In this document: one piece after another, positions 2,371 through 56,486 of the stretch
Layout of the letters: every line of letters starts with the position of its first letter
Position numbering within the stretch: the stretch's first letter is position 1
NCBI GenBank assembly: GCA_950295325.1
Contig: OX485804.1
Location: 55,738,001 to 55,802,000 of the forward strand
Length of the DNA stretch: 64,000 nt
Source: Polytrichum commune
Lineage: Eukaryota > Streptophyta > Polytrichopsida > Polytrichales > Polytrichaceae
Direction of reading: 5' to 3'
Notes under the pieces: generated by a model
Database searches by the model: none
What the model saw: only the letters and a program-made list of their open reading frames with translations
Told to the model about the DNA's origin: nothing
Made by a program: the position numbers and the translations under genes

Positions 2371-3795
2371 GGCCTTGGGGTGTGAGAGTTGTGCAAGATT
2401 TTATAATGTTGTTACTAATGTGACTAATACCTCGGCTGGGTATTAGTCACATTAGCCACATCATTCTATAATCTTATTTTATTGTATATTATATTGCATG
2501 CAAACCATTCCTATCATAACCATGACACAAACCAACACAGTACTATAAGTGTTTGACCGTTCTAACCATCCCTCAATTTCAAGCTGAATTTAAAGTGAAA
2601 TAAAACAAAAAATTCATAACAATTAGACACAAAATCAAATGCCCATAAAAACTTGCAAAATCGAAACTTCTCTGATGTAGCAACTATATCAAAAATTATC
2701 ACAAACCTAGGCCTTGGGGTGTGAGAGTTGTGCAAGATTTTATAATGTTGTGACTAATGTGACTAATACCTCGGCTGGGTATTAGTCATATTAGTTACAT
2801 CATTCTATAATCTTCTGTAATTTTATTTTATTGTATATTAAATTGCATGCAAACCATTTGTATCATAACCATGATACAAGCCAACACAATACTATAGGTG
2901 TTTGACCATTCTAACCATTTCTCAATTTCAAGTTGAATTTAAAGTGAAATAAAACAAAAATTTCATTACAAAAAGTCACAAAATCAAATTCCCATAAAAA
3001 CTTGCAGAATCGAAACTCCTCTGATATGCCAACTATACCGAAAATTATCATAAACTTAGGCCTTGGGGTGTGAGAGTTGTGCAAGATTTTATAATGTTGT
3101 GACTAATGTGACTAATACCTCGGCTGGGTATTAGTCACATTAGTCACATCATTCTATAATTTTCTATAATCTTGTTTTATTGTATATTAAATTGCATGCG
3201 AACCATTCCTATGATAACCATGACAAAAACCAACATAGTACTATATGTATTTGACCCTTCTGACCATTTCTCAATTTCAAGTTGAATTCAAAGTACAATA
3301 AACCACAATTGTTTTTTCAATGAGTCACAAAATCCAATGCCCATAAAAACTTGCATAATCGAAACTTCTCTGATGTGCCAACTATACCAAAAATTATCAC
3401 AAAATTACGCTTTTGGGTGTGAGAGCTGTGCAAGATTTTATAATGTTGTGACTAATGTGACTAATACCTTGACTGGGTAATAGTCACATTAGTCACATCA
3501 TTCTATAATCTTCTATAATATTATTGTATTGTATATTAAATTGCATGCAAACCATTCCTATCATAACCATGACAAAAACCAACACAATACTATAGGTGTT
3601 TGACCGTTCTAACCATCTCTCAATTTCAAGTTGAATTCAAAATCAAATAAACTAGAAAATACATAACAAGAAGTCACAAAATCCAATGCCCATAAAAACT
3701 TATAGAATTGAAATTTCTTTTATGTGACAACTATACAAAAAATTATCACAAACTTAGGCCTCAGGGTGTGAGAGTTGTGCAAGATTTTACAATGT
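2371..3795 (+). repeat. satellite-like tandem array, about 345-bp unit, 4 full units plus a partial one
   Basis: Units begin with GGCCTTGGGGTGTGAGAG or a variant near 2371, 2710, 3059, 3409 and 3757, giving periods of 339-350 bp. Every unit except the partial last one contains a near-perfect palindrome built on GACTAATGTGACTAATACC and its reverse complement, followed by AATTGCATGCAAACCATTC. Units differ by substitutions and small indels. An inverted copy of unit sequence lies at about 11220-11350, and the inner edges of both places share about 40 further bases (3828-3870 and about 11163-11205). Confidence 0.9.
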
Positions 3796-5529
3796 TACTC
3801 CATTTATGACTTAACATTTATATATATGATGTTTTTACTTGATCTTCTTTTACTTTGATATATTACTTTTATATTCGAGTTCAAAACATCAATTGGAATG
3901 CATTGATATTTGTTTGCATACACATAAAGGATAGGAGAATCCATCCACATCTTTGAAGACAGCGGCAATGATGGTGTGGAAAAGACATTGTTGTACGCTG
4001 ACACGTCAACATGGTGGCATTATGGCTAGGAGCAAGGCTAATTTTTCACAAAGTTTCCATGTCCACGTCCAAAAACCTTGAATTGAAAGGCAAAAAAAAT
4101 TGCAACCTGTCCCAAAACTGGTAATTTTTGAACCAACATGTCCATGGAAAGGTTAAAGAAAAAACAACCCGTCCCAAAACCAGTTCCATTAGTAATTTGT
4201 ATTTTTGCTAATTTCAGCTGCCACCACCCGCATTCCCTCCACGACACCCCCCATTTCTTTCATTTCAGTTTAAGCTCTTCCCATCGAGCAGGTTGTGAGC
4301 TCAATACTGTGCTCACATGTGTCCTTAACCTTAAAATTGCTAAAACTGAGAGAGTGTGATTGCATTGAATACTTGAAAAGATTAAAATATTAATGTTCAT
4401 TAGTTTAGTGGTGAATGGCGTTAAAGCTCATGTGATGAGGCAATTAGAAGTTAGGATTTTAGCTCAATTGATTTTGGATTTAGTGGTGAGTTGGGTAGTA
4501 CTTAAGGCAAGCCGTCTAAGTTCAGGGTTTTAGTGTCGGAATTAGGACCTCTCGCTGGTTGTTTTGGGGAAGGTTAGGGCTTTACGGATTATCCTAGGAT
4601 CTGAGGAATAGAGGAGGAGGAGCCTCGCTCTCTCGCTCTCTTTTTGGGCAGTTGAGAAAAAATAGAGCGCGGCGCAGCAGAGGGAGGCCGGAGGCAGGGA
4701 TTCGGAGAAGGTGAGACGAGGAGGCAGCTGGAGGCTGCCTGCAAGAATGCTACACAGAGGGTGAGGCTGAAAGGAGGCCAAATTCGGTCTTGCTGCCACA
4801 AGAAAACTACTGTAATGGCCTTGGCCGTGACTGCAAGGGGTCCATGATGCATTGGCCAGCGGAAGTGGCCAGGGGATTCCAGAAGGAGGACTAGTGAATT
4901 TCTGAAGGCCGGCATTGAATGGAGGAGACGAGTGGGTGAAAACAACGAAGGATTGCCAGCGGCAATCACATTGGGCATCATGTTGCCGGGTGGTCGCTAC
5001 CTCAGTCCGAATGATGTTCTCAATCCGCTGAGGTGGAATTCGCTTGTTGATTCCTGATTCATCGAATGTGAGCAAGACATTCTGAAGTTTAGCTGAGAGG
5101 CAAGAATGCCATCAGACAGGCATCGAAGCAGCAAGGCCTCAACCGTTGAAGTCAATGTAGTATCTGCACCCGGATGGCTGCGGCAGTAGTTGCTCAATAG
5201 CTTCCGAATAGGCTAATCACGGATAGGGTCGAAGGAGGATTCTGTCGCCAGGCGGTGAAGGGGCTAATGCGAGGGGGTCGACCTCGAATGCCTGGAAGTG
5301 GTCTCGGTGTGCACAAAAATGTTGCAGCAGACTCTCCTCAGAAGAGGTGCCTCAGAGGCCGGAAGGAAGGTCGGATTAAGTAGTGCAGATGGGCTTAAGT
5401 TGTGCAGACGAGGGTTGATGGTTCAGGGGCCTGGAACCGGGTTGGTCCAGACTTGGAATTCGGGAGAGGGCCCTGGTGATTAACGGAAGGACTTCAGGGT
5501 GTAGTAAATGACTAGGTAAGGGTTTTGAA
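3796..5529. other. no supported gene; GC-richer patch 4600-5500
   Basis: The stretch 4600-5500 is richer in G and C than its surroundings and carries a 177-aa open frame on the minus strand (4542-5075) without recognisable motifs. It could be a gene fragment or retroelement UTR. Around 4038-4062 the words ATTTTTCACAA and CATGTCC recur inverted at about 7528-7556, so a decayed inverted-repeat element spanning both is possible. Confidence 0.35.
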
Positions 5530-23317: not shown

Positions 23318-24807
23318 ACTAACTTGCATGTTCCATAGAGTAGGTCTTGTTCCAAGTTGGTGGGAGTACACGAAAGGTCCAAAGCATGTACTTCATGTTC
23401 TCTTCATGTGATTGTTGAGTGCACCAAAAGTGTAATGAAGAAACACATTAATCCTATTCCAAATCCCGCATTCATAGTAAGGTGAGTGTCCCGTGAGTGC
23501 ACCTATATATCATGGATTGTGACATACTACGAACACCTTATTGTGTCGGTATATGATCACGTGATTGCCCCCCCTCCCCCCCAATTATAAATTGCACACT
23601 TCAAATGTTTTCCAAGGACAAGTTATAAACAAGGTCCGTTGACTAAATTGAAGCAAATTGAATGACCAATAAACACAATCTTCTAAAAGCAAGTGCATTG
23701 TTAACTACAATGGAGTCGCTCCCCCTAACAACACTTTGGAACACCATCTCACTCTCCTTTGTCTTGCAATTTGCCCAAAGAGGCACCTAGCATGCCTCAA
23801 TGGGCACTCAATATTGACTATAATCCACATGGTGGTCCGCCTACCTATCCCCACCAACCCATGCACAATCTACAAACAAGTGCACAAATACCTTGGACGG
23901 TTAGTTACATAAGATTAACACCTAATTAAAGGTCGAGAAAGGCTTCTTTTTGTTTAGGATCCTGACAACTATTTGTGCCCGTACATACTCTGAGGGAGTG
24001 GACTCATCATTGGAGACCAAAACCAAACCTTGGCTCATTTTAGAGATCAGTTTACATCAATAATCACTTACAATTGAACTCCATTTGAATCTCAAGCGAG
24101 TTATTAACGCCGTTTGTGACAGGTTATGATTAGTTGCAAAACTTTGGCCCATGTCAAAGACCACCCCCCTAGGTCTCTTCGCATAGGGTAGAGCGAATAA
24201 AAGACACCATGCATGTACCCTCCAGTGTTCAAGAGTGAAGTCTTCAATGCCCTTCAAACGTGATTTGGCCCTTCAAAATAAACCTCTCTCAAAACATCCC
24301 TTCAAAATGCAACCCCAAATTGAAAATGAAGACGTCACTTGAAACCCTCAATACAATATGCCCACCACAAGAATCAACAAGCTTAGGGCATTGTCACTAC
24401 AAGAAATGAAGTTTGATGGTTGATTCTCAATTCTGCACATTGTATTGAAAACGTGTACCATATGATTCATGCGCAAGTTTAATATGGATTATGTATTTCA
24501 TTTCTATATTCTTGGATTGACGTCTTGGATTTGAACCAACGCTTCACCTGAACGGCTGAAATTCGATAACCCTTCAAAATGAAATTCATACGAGGGCTTC
24601 AACCTTGAACACTTGTACCCGCCCTTTGCCCAAGGTGGAGTTACAAAGGACGGGAGACTGTCCACGAACAAGACACACTAAACTACAAGTCTCCTTGGTT
24701 GGTGGAACAGTCCCATAAATGTGAAAGGGCGGGGCTCCCCTTATTACTTTGGTCCTCTAAAAGCTGTAAGGAACTGCAGGCAGGCAAGCAGGAGGCCGCC
24801 TCCTCCA

Positions 24808-25475
24808 ATTATTTTGGGCAGATAGAGCCTTAACTTGGCTTCGTGGTGCCAAAAGTCCCCCCTGCCCAATCTGGCACTCGACGTGCTGCACACAGACTTC
24901 ATGGCGTAAGCCAAATAATTTCACCCGATGCTGCTCAAGACAAAGACGTTCATGACACGCTAACACTCATGCTGTGCATTCTCTTCTTAACACACCCCCA
25001 CTCCACTCTACTCTTTTCTTTTCACGTACTAATAGTGCACCCACACACTTATCGTTGCGGGCCACCAGTGAATGGGTTCTACCAGCATTGGTTACATCTA
25101 GTGGCTCTCACCGGTCAAATCAGAGCTAAAAGTGGTCCAATTGTTTTGGGCAGATAGAGCCTTAACTTGGCTTCGTGGTGCCAAAAGTCCCCCTTGCCGA
25201 ATCTGGCACTTGATGTGTTGTAGACAAAATTCATGCCATAAGCCATATAATTTCACCCGATGCTGCTCAAGACAAAGATGTTCATTACACGCTAACACTC
25301 ATGGTGTGCATTTTCCTTTTAACACGCTCCACTCCACTCCACTCCACTCATTTCTTTCCATGTACTAATAGTCCACCTACATACCTATTGGTGCGGGCCA
25401 CCAGTGAATGGGCTCTACTAGCATTGGTTGCATCCAGTGGTTCTCACTGGCCAAATCGGAGCGAAAAGTGGCCTT
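24808..25475 (+). repeat. direct tandem duplication, about 333-bp unit
   Basis: The two units, 24808-25138 and 25139-25475, both begin near TTTTGGGCAGATAGAGCC and run through CGATGCTGCTCAAGACAAAG and GCGGGCCACCAGTGAATGGG. They are about 85-90 percent identical by eye. The small ORFs in them are alternate-frame by-products. Confidence 0.85.
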
Positions 25476-49900: not shown

Positions 49901-52900
49901 TTAGGGTGATGGGCTTCTTGAGGTCCACGAACCCGACGGTTTGATTGATTCCAGAACCTGCACTGCTTCTGCCATAGTTGGCCGTTTGCCAGGCACCTGC
50001 GAAGCAACAACAACTGAATTTTTCAGCTCAAGAAATCGAAGCAGAAATATTTGAAGTTCAAGAAACCATAATATTCAAGTTCCCAACAGAATTACAAGAT
50101 GCTAACCCCACAGAGAGGAGGCATGAAGATCAAGTCTCCAGTTCGTTGATCCTACTTCCCTGCCATGCGAGTCACTTATTTCTCTTCAAAATCAGAATTC
50201 AGAAAGTACCAAGATTAGCACCTAGATTAGCATCATGTTGTACTTTGTTGTGATTGAATGAATGTAATAAAATTTGGTGAAAGATCATTTTTGAGGTTTG
50301 TCAAGAGGTCAATCCTACTTTCCTGGCATTATAAAAACTTTTCTTCTCTTCAAAATCAGGACATAGAAATCAGAACGTAGTAAGTACCCACAGACAATCA
50401 CAAGATACTGATCACGCATAAAAGTGTCAGTGTCCCATTCACGAGTAACTTCAGTCAATCCTACTTCCCTGGAATGAAAGCTACTTTTTCTCTTCAAATT
50501 CAGAATGCAGAAAAAAATCAGGAAGTAGAATTAGGATGTAGAAGTACCAATCGCAATCACAAGACGATAACCAAGAGACATCAGGCATAAAGGACCGAGT
50601 CTCTGATTTACAATTCACTTTGGTCGATCCTATTTCCCTGGCATAAGACCTGATTCTTCTCTTCGAAACCAAAAGCAGCAATCAGGATGTAGAAAGTACC
50701 AAAAACAAAGAAGAAGATGCTACACCTCAAAAGATCAGCATGAAGGGTTAAAGTTCAAGATCAGAATGTAGGAAGTACCAAACACAACCACAAAATGCTA
50801 ACCTAGAGAGCACCCGGCATGAAGATTTGAGTTCCTCATTCAATCGTGATGTAGGTCAATCCAACTGTCCTGGCATGAGAGCTACACAGAATTCTTGATG
50901 TGGAAAGAACCAAACGCAATCACAAACTGCTAAACTAGAGAGGTCAGACACAAAGGATTCAGTCTCAAGTACTAACTTCGGTTGGCCTACCTCATTCCCT
51001 GGCATGAGAGCTCATTTTTCTAAAATTAGCTAATTTTCGAATTTTGGACTTCGAAATCCAAAATTCAGAAACCCGGATGTAGAACCAGATTATAGAAAGC
51101 GCCAACCCACAATCACAAACTACCAACCCATCAGGCATAAAGAATCAAGTATCCAATTCACATGCAGCTTCGGTCGATCGTACATCCCTACCATGAGAGC
51201 TAACGTTTCTCATTGAAATCAGAATCCAGAAAGCACCAAACACAATCACAAAATGCTAACCTAGAGGGGATCAGAGACACTAAAAAATTCAGTCTCCAAT
51301 TCACAAGTAGCTTGGTTCAATTTTACTTCCCTGCCATTGGGACTACTTCTACTCTTCAAAACCAGGGTGTAGAAAGCACCGAACACAATCACGAAATGCT
51401 AACCTAGAGAGCATCAGGCACAAAGATTTGACCACTTTCTCTCCTCAAAATTTCCTCGGCGGAAGACAGAAGGAGAGGAACAGGATGGAATGGAATTAAA
51501 TGCAATTTTTTACCTGAGAAGTGCAGACAAGAGCCAGCTTGAGAACTTGGACGACCTCACTCTCCGGGAACAGCGTGAGTTTGGAGTCGAAGCAATCGGG
51601 TCCTCGTCCTTCCTCCAGAGTGGAGATCACATACTCGGCGAGCACGTTCTGTCCACCTTCCGGGTTCTCGACCGGATGTCGACCCGTGACCAATTCCAGG
51701 AGCACCACCCCGAAGCTGTACACATCACATTTAGCTGTGACTTCGGGCTTCGAAAAATTCGCTCCTCCCAGCTCCGGAGCTGCATATCCTCGCATTGTGT
51801 GGAACTTCCGGGTGGCAGCGTATGTGTCCAGGATGGGGAGAAATTTACCCAGGCCGAAGTCACTGATCTTTGGTTCAAAGCTTTCATCCAAAAGTATGTT
51901 GACTGAAGACAGGTTGAGATGCAACACTTGTGACCTGTACCACAATTGATTACAGTAAGCAACAACTCATCCCATTTCACGCACAATGTTTGCTTGGAAG
52001 AGCACCGAAGACCAAGATAATGATGATGATGATGATGGAACACACAGAGCTCCAAAAAATCTACTCGGGTAAAAGACTTGTGACCAGTACCACAATCTAT
52101 TCTAAGCAGCCCATCGATTTGACGCACAATGTTTGTTTCGATGTGCATCGAAGACGATGATGATGATGATGTAGTGAAACATACAGAGCTCCGAAACATT
52201 GACTGAGGTTGAGATGCAAGACTTGTGACCCGTACCACAATCGATTATTGTAGATTAAAGTCCACCCATTTCACGCACAGAATTGGAAGTGTACCGAAGA
52301 AGATGGTGATGTAATGGAACGTACAAAGATTAAAACATTGACTGAGGTTGAGATGCAAGACTTGTGACCTATACCACAATCCATTATAAGCAACCCACCC
52401 ATTTGACGCACAAAACTTGGAAGTGCACCGACGAAGAAGAACATGATGTAATGGAACATACAGAGCTCCAAAATTTTGACCAAGGTCGAGATGTAAAACT
52501 TGTGACCAGTACCACAATCAAGGCAACCCACATATTTGACACACAAAACTTCGACTGTAGGCAAACCCACACATTTGACGCACAAAAGTTGGAAATGCAC
52601 CAAAGTAGAAAAGACAGCAATATAATGGAACGTACAGAGCTCCACAATTGATTCCATGGCAACCCATCCATTTCGACGCACAACCATTGGGAGTGCACCG
52701 AAGAAGAAGAATAAGATGTAATGGAACATACAGAACTCCAAAGAATTGACTGCGGTTGAGATGCAAAACTTGTGACCAACACCACAATCGATGGTGGCTA
52801 AACCCACCCAATTTGACACACAAAACTTGGAAGTGCACCGAAGAAGACGAAGGAGAAGATGTAGTGGAACATACAGAGAGCTCCAGGGATGAATGACTAA

Positions 52901-55900
52901 CCTCAAATCATGGTGTAAATAAGCAAGCCCGCGGGCGACACCAGTGGCAATGCGGAAGCGTCTGGACCAAACAAGAGATGTCTGCGAGCTCTGCTGCTGG
53001 TGCAAATGAGCAGCTAAAGTTGAATTTGCAATGTAATCAGACAACATCAACTGCATCGACGAAGACCAGTAGTAGCCTTGAAGAGTGACCAGATTGGTGT
53101 GCCTCATGTCTCCCAAGCTGTTCATCTCCGACTCAAACTCTTCCGAGTTTTTGATCCGCCCTAACGTCTCCAGTTTCTTAATAGCAATACTTAGCCCATC
53201 ATCAAATGTCGCCCTGTACACAACTCCAATAGAGCCACGCCCAATCACACATTCCTTGTTCAAAAGAGCTTTGGTCCCTGTTTCCCAATCTTCGAATCGT
53301 GTGGGTAGAACTTTGTTGAACAAGACAAGCTTCCCTACAATAGGGCTAACATCTGGGGTTGGAGGTGTGCTCTCATACACCAAAATTTCTGTTTTAGGTT
53401 GTTGAGTTTGCTTTTTCATCGCCCATATGCTGAGCAATGTGATAAGGATAACCCCCAGGGCTATGACTCCGGCTGCGGCTATGGCGATCAGTGCAGAAAC
53501 AGACAACAATCTTCTAGTTGTGTGAACTGAAGGGGGAGATGGGGATGGAGTCAGCTTGCATGGAATGCTCAATGGTGGTCCACATAACCCTGGGTTTCCG
53601 AGGTACGAAGTGTTTCCGAATCGGCCAAGAGCATTTGCCACCGGAATGCTTCCGGACAACAGATTGTATGAGACATTGAAATTAGTCAGGTTCACCATGT
53701 CGCCCAGGCTGCCTGGAATGCTGCCGTTCAGGGTGTTGTTTTGGAGGTAGAGCTCTCTCATGCCTGCAATTTGACCTAAGTCGGAAGGAATGCTGCCTGT
53801 GAGGCTGTTCATGGATAGGTCCCTGAATCATCACACAAACAAGACACATCGTCAACAGAATTTGACGAATTAGTGCTTATGAAGTTTTCGCTCTCCGAAT
53901 CTGATGTCAAGAAGCTTGCCACCGGATGGGATAGGAGCAGGGAATCTATCTTAGCCTGGTTCTGTGAGGAGCCCAGAATCATCATCACAAAAAAGCACGA
54001 CAGTTCAAGCATATCAGAGTTTTATGAACTTTCATACTTCCGAATCTGATGTCAAGAATTTTTCCACCAGATGAGATAGGTATTCAGAGACTAAATAACG
54101 AGGAATCTATCTTAGTCTGGTTCTGTGAGGAGCCAAGAATCATAATCACAAGCATCAAGAGACTACAAGCATAACAGAATTTGATGAACTTTTCGTTATC
54201 CGAATCTGATGTAGAAGTTTGCCACCAGATGAGATAGGTATTCAGAGAAACAAACGAACGAGGAATCGATCTTAGTCTGTGTCTGTGAGGAGCCCAGAAA
54301 TCTTCACAGGCATCTCGAGACATTGAACATAATAAAATTTGATGAACTTTGCCACCAAATGGGATAGGTATGCAGAGAATGAACGAGGATTTTTACTTTA
54401 GTCTGATTTTTGTGAGGAGCCAATCATCATCATCATCACAAGGAAAAAAGACATTATGCATAAATACAGAATTCGATAAACTTTTTCCTCTCAGCGATTT
54501 ATCAAGGAGGAATTTGCCATGGCCAGATGGGAGAAGGAGAAGGGAGACTTACAAGGTTCGAAGAGAAGTGAGGTTGACAAAATTGGGAGGAATGATCCCT
54601 TGCAACCCTGCGTGTGACAGGTTGAGAAGCTCCAAGACACCAAGCTGCCCAATCTCCGAAGGTATTTCTCCACCAAGCTGGAAGTTGTCTCCGAGGCTCA
54701 CAAAAGTGAGTTTCTCCAGAGTGCCAATCTCCAGTGGAATGCCACCCTGCAGATCGTTGTGGCTCAAATCCAAGTAAGTGAGGTTGGACACATATCCTAC
54801 TTCCGAAGGGATGGAGCCTGAAATGTTGTTTTGATGTAAATCGACATAACCCAGGCTTGTGAGGCTTCCGAGTGCAGATCCTGGTATGAAGCTCGAGAAG
54901 CCATTCTCGGCCAGGTTTATGCCCAACAGATTTGTGCAGTTCCCTATCGACGAGGGAATGGCACCGGAGAGTCTGTTGCCTGCAAGTGACATGTAATGTA
55001 ATGTGTCACAATACTGGAACAGCGATGGAGGCAACTCTCCGCTGAAATAGTTCTGGGACAGATCCAACATCCGCAACCGTGCCAGGTTGCCAAGACCGCC
55101 GGGTATGGCTCCCGACAACGCATTCTCACTCACATTGAGCTTCCATAGCGTCCCTGCACACAAAGCCAAAGCAGATTGTCACAATACTGGTCTCAATTCG
55201 GCCACAGCAAAAACCAAAGTCAGAAATGCAAGGGGAATGAAAGGTCGACGTTCGACAACAGCGGAGCACTCTTTCCTCCCAGATTGCTCAAAACAACACC
55301 TAGATTAGAGCGAAAATCCATCTTGACATGGAAAAACAACACTCCTTTACTTGCTCTCAACTTTCAAGCATGCTTGCAGTAATAGCGTCGATGGTAGAGA
55401 AGAGTGTTCTAATATCAAGAATTTGTGACCTAGGTGGGAATTTTTAGTGGCGAGGACTAAGCGCCAAATCACAAGACTGTCTCACTTTGGTAGCAAAAAC
55501 AAGTCAGAAATGCAAGGGGAAAGAAAAGGTCTTCAGGACTCAAAACAACACCTAGATTAGGGCGAAAATCTAGACTTGCAAAAAAATTAAAAAAATTAAA
55601 ACTCACTACTTGCTCTCAATTGTCAAGCAAACTTGCAGTATTAGCGGCGGCAAAGAAACAAGTGTTGAAACATGAAGAATTTGTGGGCGAGGTGGAATTC
55701 TTTAGTGGCGAAGGCTAAGTGGTATCAATTTCCAAAAGCTCGGGAGAAATAGGTTGCAAAAACAAGTCAGAAATGCAAGGAAAAAAAAAGGTCGACCATC
55801 ATCAACAGCAGCACACTCTTCCCTTCCAGATTGCTACCACACTCTTTAGAACTCAAAACAACACCCAGCGTAGGGCGGAATATGATCATCTTGACTTGCA

Positions 55901-56486
55901 AAAAATAAATCCTCCACTTGCTCTCAACTTTCATGTAGGCTTGCAGTTGCAGTGAAAGCGTCGGTAAAGAAGGAGAAGAAGAGCGCAGAAAACATCAAGA
56001 AATTTCTGGGCAGAGGTGGAACATTTTTAGTGGTGAGGACAAAGTAGGTAAAGTACCAATTTCCGAAAGCTCGGGAGGGATAGGTCCCGAGAAGTTGTTC
56101 CTGGAGAGCACGAGGGTCCTCAACGTGGACAGATTTCTCAGTGCAGGCGAGATCGGCCCCGAAATCCCAGCGCCGGTGAGGAAAAGCTTCAAAACTGTGC
56201 GATTGGAGTTGCAAGTCACCCCAACCCACAGACACGGATCTGGTTGTGAGCTAGCATTCCACGAACTCAGTGATCCCTGGGGATCAGCCACAGCAGCTTT
56301 GAACGCCAGGAGAGCCTCTCTCTCGCCAGTGTTCACAACTAGAGCTGTCACTGTCCCCACACACAAAAGCAAGAAAATTTCAACCGCCAATATTGCAGCC
56401 CGGATCAACTCATGTCGCCATGGTGGAATGCTAAACTGTGAGGATTTTGATCCTGTCCGTGTCACCTTTGCCATTTTCTTGTTCAC
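49901..56486 (-). CDS. LRR receptor-like kinase of the At1g12460 type, 5 exons, 822 aa
   Basis: Exons (minus strand): 56057-56486, 55153-54553, 53822-52902, 51934-51514 and 49996-49901 (TAA); GT-AG junctions, 2469 nt, frame closes. The start could also be Met5 (56474). Order: signal anchor (about residues 24-48), LRRNT ([13 protein letters not shown] ... CLWVGVTC), LRRs up to about residue 410, a proline/serine linker, a membrane helix (about 449-478), then the kinase. P-loop GRGSIG (about 538-543), beta-3 Lys559, and DFG (676-678) are present. The catalytic loop reads HLNLSSVN (656-663): HRD is HLN and the following Lys is Ser. The Arabidopsis relatives also have HLN, so this clade is probably catalytically weak or a pseudokinase that signals by scaffolding. 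Acts at the plasma membrane; ligand unknown. All four introns hold tandem arrays. Confidence 0.93.
49997..51513 (-). repeat. intron 4 tandem array of the LRR kinase gene
   Basis: The 1517-bp intron is almost wholly built of about eight units of 130-230 bp. Each has variants of CCTACTTCCCTGGCATGAGAG (landmarks near 50151, 50314, 50460, 50630, 50860, 50990, 51180 and 51323), then CTCTTCAAAATCAG, AGAAAGTACCAA, CACAATCACAA, TGCTAACCTAGAGAG and CAGGCATAAAG. Unlike introns 1 and 3 I see no copied exon sequence. Confidence 0.85.
51935..52901 (-). repeat. intron 3 tandem array carrying copies of the exon 4 start
   Basis: Units of about 140 bp. Each unit, in gene orientation, contains GATTGTGGTAnnG followed by GTCACAAGTnTTGCATCTC, i.e. 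the 3' splice site plus the first 20-40 nt of exon 4. Copies end at 52085, 52230, 52369, 52507 and 52777; the true exon start is 51934. The AG is kept only in the true site and in the 52369 copy. A unit without this part lies near 52640. Confidence 0.9.
53823..54552 (-). repeat. intron 2 tandem array of the LRR kinase gene
   Basis: Four units of about 127-161 bp marked by TGTGAGGAGCC (53963, 54124, 54284 and 54411), preceded by GGAATCTATCTTAG-like words and CCACCAGATGAGATAGG. The sequence is unrelated to the other intron arrays. Confidence 0.85.
55154..56056 (-). repeat. intron 1 tandem array carrying a copy of the exon 1 end
   Basis: About three units of 260-330 bp, marked by AGTCAGAAATGCAAGG (55219, 55503 and 55765) and CTCAAAACAACACC. 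The segment 55721-55753 repeats the last bases of exon 1 and the donor region (true copy 56051-56084): the copy reads CCCGAGCTTTTGGAAATTGAT where the true site has ATTG|GT, so the donor GT is lost. Confidence 0.85.

Follow-up and report, generated by a model that had tools for sequence, protein, structure and literature searches.

In a predicted receptor-like kinase gene with leucine-rich repeats of the moss Polytrichum commune, intron 3 has in our judgement (probability about 85%) been lengthened by tandem duplication across its junction with exon 4, and the copied acceptor sites have been absorbed as decoys into one long intron, which now seems to have about seven times its likely original length. 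The gene occupies positions 49903-56474 on the minus strand of a stretch of 64,000 nucleotides (nt) of contig OX485804.1 (GenBank assembly GCA_950295325.1, positions 55,738,001 to 55,802,000; this whole stretch is hereafter the window, and coordinates of the gene are counted from its first letter). Its five coding exons give a protein of 818 amino acids when joined in frame. Pfam matches assign the leucine-rich repeats to exon 2 and a protein kinase domain to exons 3 and 4 together, BRI1 is the best solved-structure match of exon 4, and the kinase domain as well as the reading frames on either side of intron 3 were borne out. The kinase may resemble Arabidopsis At1g12460.

Copies of the exon 4 junction inside intron 3

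Six of the seven units of intron 3 (Table 1) carry the acceptor region. The motif G/GTCACAAG marks the true acceptor at 51935 and recurs at 52085, 52230, 52369, 52507 and 52777, exactly the five positions at which the original prediction, made from the sequence of the window, had placed extra copies of the acceptor and the start of exon 4. In transcript order, the acceptor regions end in the five bases TGTTG (52777), TACTG (52507), TATAG (52369), TACGG (52230), TACTG (52085) and TACAG (true site); among the copies AG is kept at 52369 only and replaced by TG or GG in the other four, as had been claimed. The five copies score 70, 65, 54, 52 and 38, against 27 for the best of 200 mononucleotide shuffles. 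Their aligned exon-4 part comprises about 12 nt at 52085, 24 nt at 52507, 31 nt at both 52369 and 52230 and 40 nt at 52777, so the predicted 20-40 nt of exon sequence are present in four of the five copies and not in that at 52085. Spacing from 51935 onwards is 150, 145, 139, 138 and 270 base pairs (bp), the last step spanning two units, of which that at 52738-52643 is devoid of the exon edge, and this agrees with the proposed period of about 140 bp. A motif resembling CTCTGTATGTTCC, from the beginning of the intron, occurs seven times and was rightly described as part of the unit. Self-BLAST gave E-values as low as 2.6e-87, and the array matches extend up to 24 nt into exon 4.

At the junction between units, TTTTGGA|GCTCTG, the exon-4 sequence CTTTTGGA|TGAA, 48 nt into the exon, is joined to the intron start CCCTGGA|GCTC. 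TGGA is common to both parents of this junction, which links the exon to the interior of the intron. The head-to-tail copies hold intron and adjoining exon sequence in register, the mark of a duplication that crosses an intron/exon junction, and the join at TGGA supports the earlier proposal that an ancestral intron of about 140 bp was duplicated together with the exon edge. Relative to exon 4, 5 nt after CTCAACC and about 3 nt near the end are missing from the copies; both gaps are common to the four copies that could be scored, the copy at 52085 being too decayed for scoring. We infer that it is the copies that carry deletions, because exon 4 keeps the frame of the kinase domain. Since four copies share both deletions, they look related and not captured independently.

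The array probably started from an ordinary intron of about 140 bp that was locally duplicated in tandem, and one exchange or slippage at TGGA would yield the observed unit junction. Such an event would leave the upstream copy of the acceptor and exon-4 start inside the intron, with an intact pair at the downstream end. The shared deletions suggest an order of events, in which a single edge was captured and decayed before its unit was amplified to seven. Exon 3 is probably spliced to the last acceptor, 51935, because this keeps the conserved kinase frame; the upstream copies would then be decoys, four of them without AG, and the fifth, at 52369, giving a truncated product if used. With 52369 as acceptor, the frame would read ...VDFNLQ and run into a stop at 52245-52247, 40 codons past the junction codon, where the original prediction had expected an early stop (near 52245). 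Local duplication of this kind probably also gave the remaining three introns their present form, and it probably acted on some introns in other receptor-kinase genes.

Decoy acceptors and rival explanations

The absence of AG from most decoys had been taken to fit the loss of competing splice sites under selection. This was not demonstrated: with the mean per-site, per-copy difference of this array (0.25), the probability of at most one intact AG among five copies is P = 0.12, and the column of the A of AG is one of 7 out of 125 in which at least four of the five copies are changed and at least three letters occur. The pattern is compatible with selection and with ordinary decay, and selection is possible but unproven. 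We consider it doubtful that the upstream acceptors were purged by selection against mis-splicing, so that growth of the array required each new decoy to be disabled. Besides the loss of AG from four of the five intron 3 copies, this idea can draw on the surroundings of the variable A: the 8-base stretch ATTGTGGT just upstream of it (two variable bases lie between) is invariant in the six acceptor-bearing units, as are 10 bases that begin with the G of AG, a pattern suggestive of an unusual rate of change at the splice site, though the copies are related. It can also draw on a captured donor in intron 1 that has changed from GT to AT and a captured acceptor in intron 2 that has changed from AG to TG. 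However, the probability is still 0.06 on adding the intron 1 donor copy at equal divergence, the intron 3 copies are not independent, as their shared deletions indicate, and further CAG and TAG triplets stand in intron 3. In other kinase loci, described below, the capture in L051 keeps AG and those in L015 and L029 keep GT. Four of the five counted captures (intron 3, L015, L029 and L051; not intron 1) thus have one or more copies with an intact splice dinucleotide, an argument against the view that purging is required.

To judge from sequence, it is very unlikely that 52369 is a retained functional alternative acceptor, a poison site that would tune the level of the kinase via a truncated, decay-prone mRNA. 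It is the sole copy with AG, it would lead to the stop 40 codons downstream, and it lies in U3, the unit with the shortest branch in the unit trees (0.03-0.04 against 0.13-0.26); an analogous intact decoy acceptor, followed by in-frame codons and a stop, is present in L051. Relative-rate tests for U3, however, were significant in only one of five comparisons (against U2, p = 0.004), and slow evolution of this unit as a sign of function was accordingly not established; a unit with the fewest changes would by chance also leave AG intact.

As to the origin of the array, an ordinary non-coding minisatellite or transposable-element fragment with a chance likeness to exon 4 is hardly credible. Tandem clusters do occur in arbitrary parts of the genome too (6 of 10 five-kb pieces), but the exon-edge scores of 38-70 against a shuffle maximum of 27 are in register with the acceptor, and intron 3 found no match elsewhere in the genome at the sensitivity of the search. 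A dispersed element (introner or transposon) was likewise not supported by this search, which covered introns 1, 3 and 4 and skipped very common words: introns 3 and 1 match themselves only, and intron 4 has one further match of 67 bp. Least credible of all is an assembly artefact of collapsed or repeated reads, to which tandem arrays are generally prone, as the units differ pairwise by 14-32% and carry unit-specific indels, far beyond read error.

Several points weigh against tandem duplication across the exon 4 junction as told above. The use of 51935 and the non-use of 52369 are predictions from the coding frame. Branch support among the units is poor (17-49% with iqtree, 0.15-0.82 with FastTree), so the trees do not resolve the order of duplication, and all comparisons concern one genome. 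At E 1e-20, with 129 of 952 candidates scored, a search with the exon-3 protein listed 19 other loci, 13 of which have no intron at the position of intron 3; gain and loss are therefore not told apart, and intron 3 could itself be young, even created by duplication.

Exon-edge copies in other introns of the gene and of the genome

All four introns of the kinase gene are tandem arrays. In the window, six clusters of tandem duplicates comprising 3,834 bp fall within these introns (4,117 bp in total) or straddle their edges, and the other approximately 60 kb holds 2,543 bp; besides the captured edges, no such cluster was found in the coding exons of the gene. The best copy of the acceptor edge in intron 2 is a weaker match (score 32 against a shuffle maximum of 25) and in the threshold test described below it scored 24 against 20 and was not counted. 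Scoring against shuffles yielded no exon-edge copies in intron 4. Intron 3 contains 15 sense stop triplets against 29.3 (s.d. 3.6) in 500 dinucleotide shuffles, unlike introns 1, 2 and 4, in which stop triplets are not depleted, and the frame of exon 3 stays open for about 209 codons into it. Elsewhere in the window lie a 349-bp tandem repeat (2371-3796; 4.1 copies, 87% matches) and a head-to-tail pair of about 334 bp (24804-25471; 87% identical).

Table 1 Exons, introns, intron 3 units and the captured donor edge of the kinase gene (window coordinates)
Feature	Position	Strand	Description
Exon 1	56474-56057	-	In-frame joining of exons
Exon 2	55153-54553	-	In-frame joining of exons
Exon 3	53822-52902	-	Exon frame check
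Exon 4	51934-51514	-	Exon frame check; source of the copied edge (SQVLHLNL...)
Exon 5	49996-49903	-	In-frame joining of exons
Intron 1	55154-56056	-	903 bp; tandem copies of about 290-330 bp
Copy of exon 1 end in intron 1	55722-55754	-	Final 29 nt of exon 1 with the donor, which reads AT in place of GT; score 46, best shuffle 25
Intron 2	53823-54552	-	730 bp; tandem copies of about 160 bp that extend to the acceptor and 2 nt into exon 3
Intron 3	52901-51935	-	967 bp, GT-AG; tandem array of seven units of about 140 bp (96-174 bp, the last unit counted with 48 nt of exon 4)
Unit U0	52739-52881	-	143 bp; acceptor/exon-4 copy with TG at 52777, aligned 52792-52737
Unit U1	52643-52738	-	96 bp; without exon-edge part
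Unit U2	52469-52642	-	174 bp including an extra internal duplication of about 39 bp; TG at 52507, aligned 52518-52483
Unit U3	52332-52468	-	137 bp; AG kept at 52369, aligned 52386-52338; shortest branch in unit trees
Unit U4	52192-52331	-	140 bp; GG at 52230, aligned 52247-52199
Unit U5	52053-52191	-	139 bp; decayed copy, TG at 52085, aligned 52096-52073
Unit U6	51887-52052	-	Last unit; true acceptor 51935 (AG) and first 48 nt of exon 4
Intron 4	49997-51513	-	1517 bp; tandem array

Exon-edge copies were counted at a threshold of the shuffle maximum plus 6. They were present in two of the four introns of the window gene, in two of seven introns of a first batch of other kinase loci (L015 and L029) and in one of eight introns of a second batch (L051), and at the same threshold in none of 50 control introns from chaperonin and kinesin genes. 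For the kinase introns outside the window gene the comparison is 3/15 against 0/50 (one-sided P 0.010). A bias towards receptor kinases is suggestive only, a lead and not a result, because some introns of the first batch were chosen after their repeats had been seen (L012, L015 and L029 joined the sample in this way); the eight loci of the second batch, with their single positive intron, were picked before inspection.

The limits of the sample are as follows. Seven of the first twelve kinase loci yielded an intron (none came from L011, L014, L031, L032 and L033), and L056 and L057 of the second batch had no intron between matches. For L013, L016, L030, L034, the second batch and the controls, match ends serve as intron edges, which are therefore approximate, and the second gap of L053 and the gap of L054 may contain unmatched coding sequence. 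The controls consist of 47 of 51 kinesin and chaperonin gaps and one gap each from L045, L047 and L048; most do not reach the length of the arrays (103-649 bp, but about 2.8 kb for the L045 gap), and two of them, L004 and L025, reached 2 above the shuffle maximum, under the threshold of 6. Long kinase introns are also found in loci without a tandem cluster (1,238 bp in L030, about 576 bp in L034).

Three captures lie outside the window. The 246-bp intron of L029 is made of two copies of about 120 bp, the second of which holds 22 nt of the exon end with the donor GTGAGT changed to GTGGGA. In L015, 8 nt of exon were copied together with the donor GTAAG, which reads GTAAT in both copies. L051 (3328-3467) possesses a copy of the acceptor 140 bp upstream of the true one, nearly intact, with its AG and about 59 nt of exon; the frame of this decoy, VADFGLARNSSDTHTHVSTS, is open for 20 codons and then meets a stop. 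Two candidates were not counted: the acceptor-edge copy of L012 (score 25 against shuffle maxima of 24 and 27) and L014, a tandem pair between two exon matches whose exon edges were not located. In L012 (3978-5841), tandem arrays lie in an intron and just past the next exon match of the receptor kinase, and in L011 (1936-2461, a minus-strand gene), the closest paralogous kinase, the 3' coding end is duplicated downstream (164 bp, 88% identical).

Local tandem clusters make up 13.4% of the bases in twelve receptor-kinase loci, where some of them fall in long open frames and are perhaps coding (e.g., L033 and L031), 5.2% in ten 5-kb pieces taken at round coordinates, 1.6% in twelve kinesin loci and 0.5% in ten chaperonin loci. 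At least one cluster was present in five of eight further kinase loci, and five further kinesin loci picked for their long gaps had none.

Relation to known systems and significance

In the potato RdRp gene PGSC0003DMG402000361, a tandem duplication that took in the 3' part of an intron and the beginning of the following exon gave rise to a new intron (Ma, Lan and Niu 2016, PMC4974935). This belongs to the same class of event, a duplication across an intron/exon boundary; in potato, however, the outcome was a new intron with a cryptic donor and 106 RNA reads, whereas the copies in moss intron 3 appear to be absorbed into one longer intron. The moss case further departs from potato in its seven units and in the absence of AG from four of the five copied acceptors. 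Events of this type have been described before, and what is new is the apparent absorption into one longer intron and the recurrence. A review (PMC3443670) treats tandem duplication of exon segments containing AGGT, the Rogers model, as a genuine route of intron gain. Common to this model and the moss gene are the alteration of intron content by local tandem duplication and the presence of AG|GT at the exon 3/exon 4 junction; the moss unit differs in being about two thirds intronic and in copying a pre-existing acceptor. In neither of two scans of intron 3 did a copy of the exon 3 end exceed the best shuffle (20 against 25 in the threshold test; a fully decayed old copy would escape), and intron 3 therefore does not show the AGGT exon-segment form.

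Human repeat-bearing genes have AG|GT sites that can serve as donor and as acceptor (PMC10809524), and the moss repeat units carry a similar AG|GT-like site; in polyubiquitin, the main case there, the repeats are coding and the sites in use, whereas the moss repeats are intronic and their sites putative. TG can reportedly act as an alternative 3' splice site, with verified human cases (PMC2374985), and three of the moss decoys, putative sites as they are, read TG. The decoys are therefore not to be called dead. Among the matches listed, mainly from the open literature, neither this gene nor receptor-kinase introns formed in this manner were reported.

The introns described appear to form a series of stages by which introns grow long through copying of the splice junction itself: L051 with two units and an intact decoy acceptor, L029 with two units and a copied donor, and intron 3 with seven units and its decoys mostly lost. 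Such stages make it possible to test how the spliceosome chooses between acceptors that are nearly identical and lie 140 bp apart, and whether selection removes decoys. As a conjecture that we still regard as unlikely, recurrent duplication across splice junctions would lengthen introns in this moss and favour receptor kinases, and decoys with stops, some of them intact (L051, U3), may tune the levels of these receptors and their evolution.

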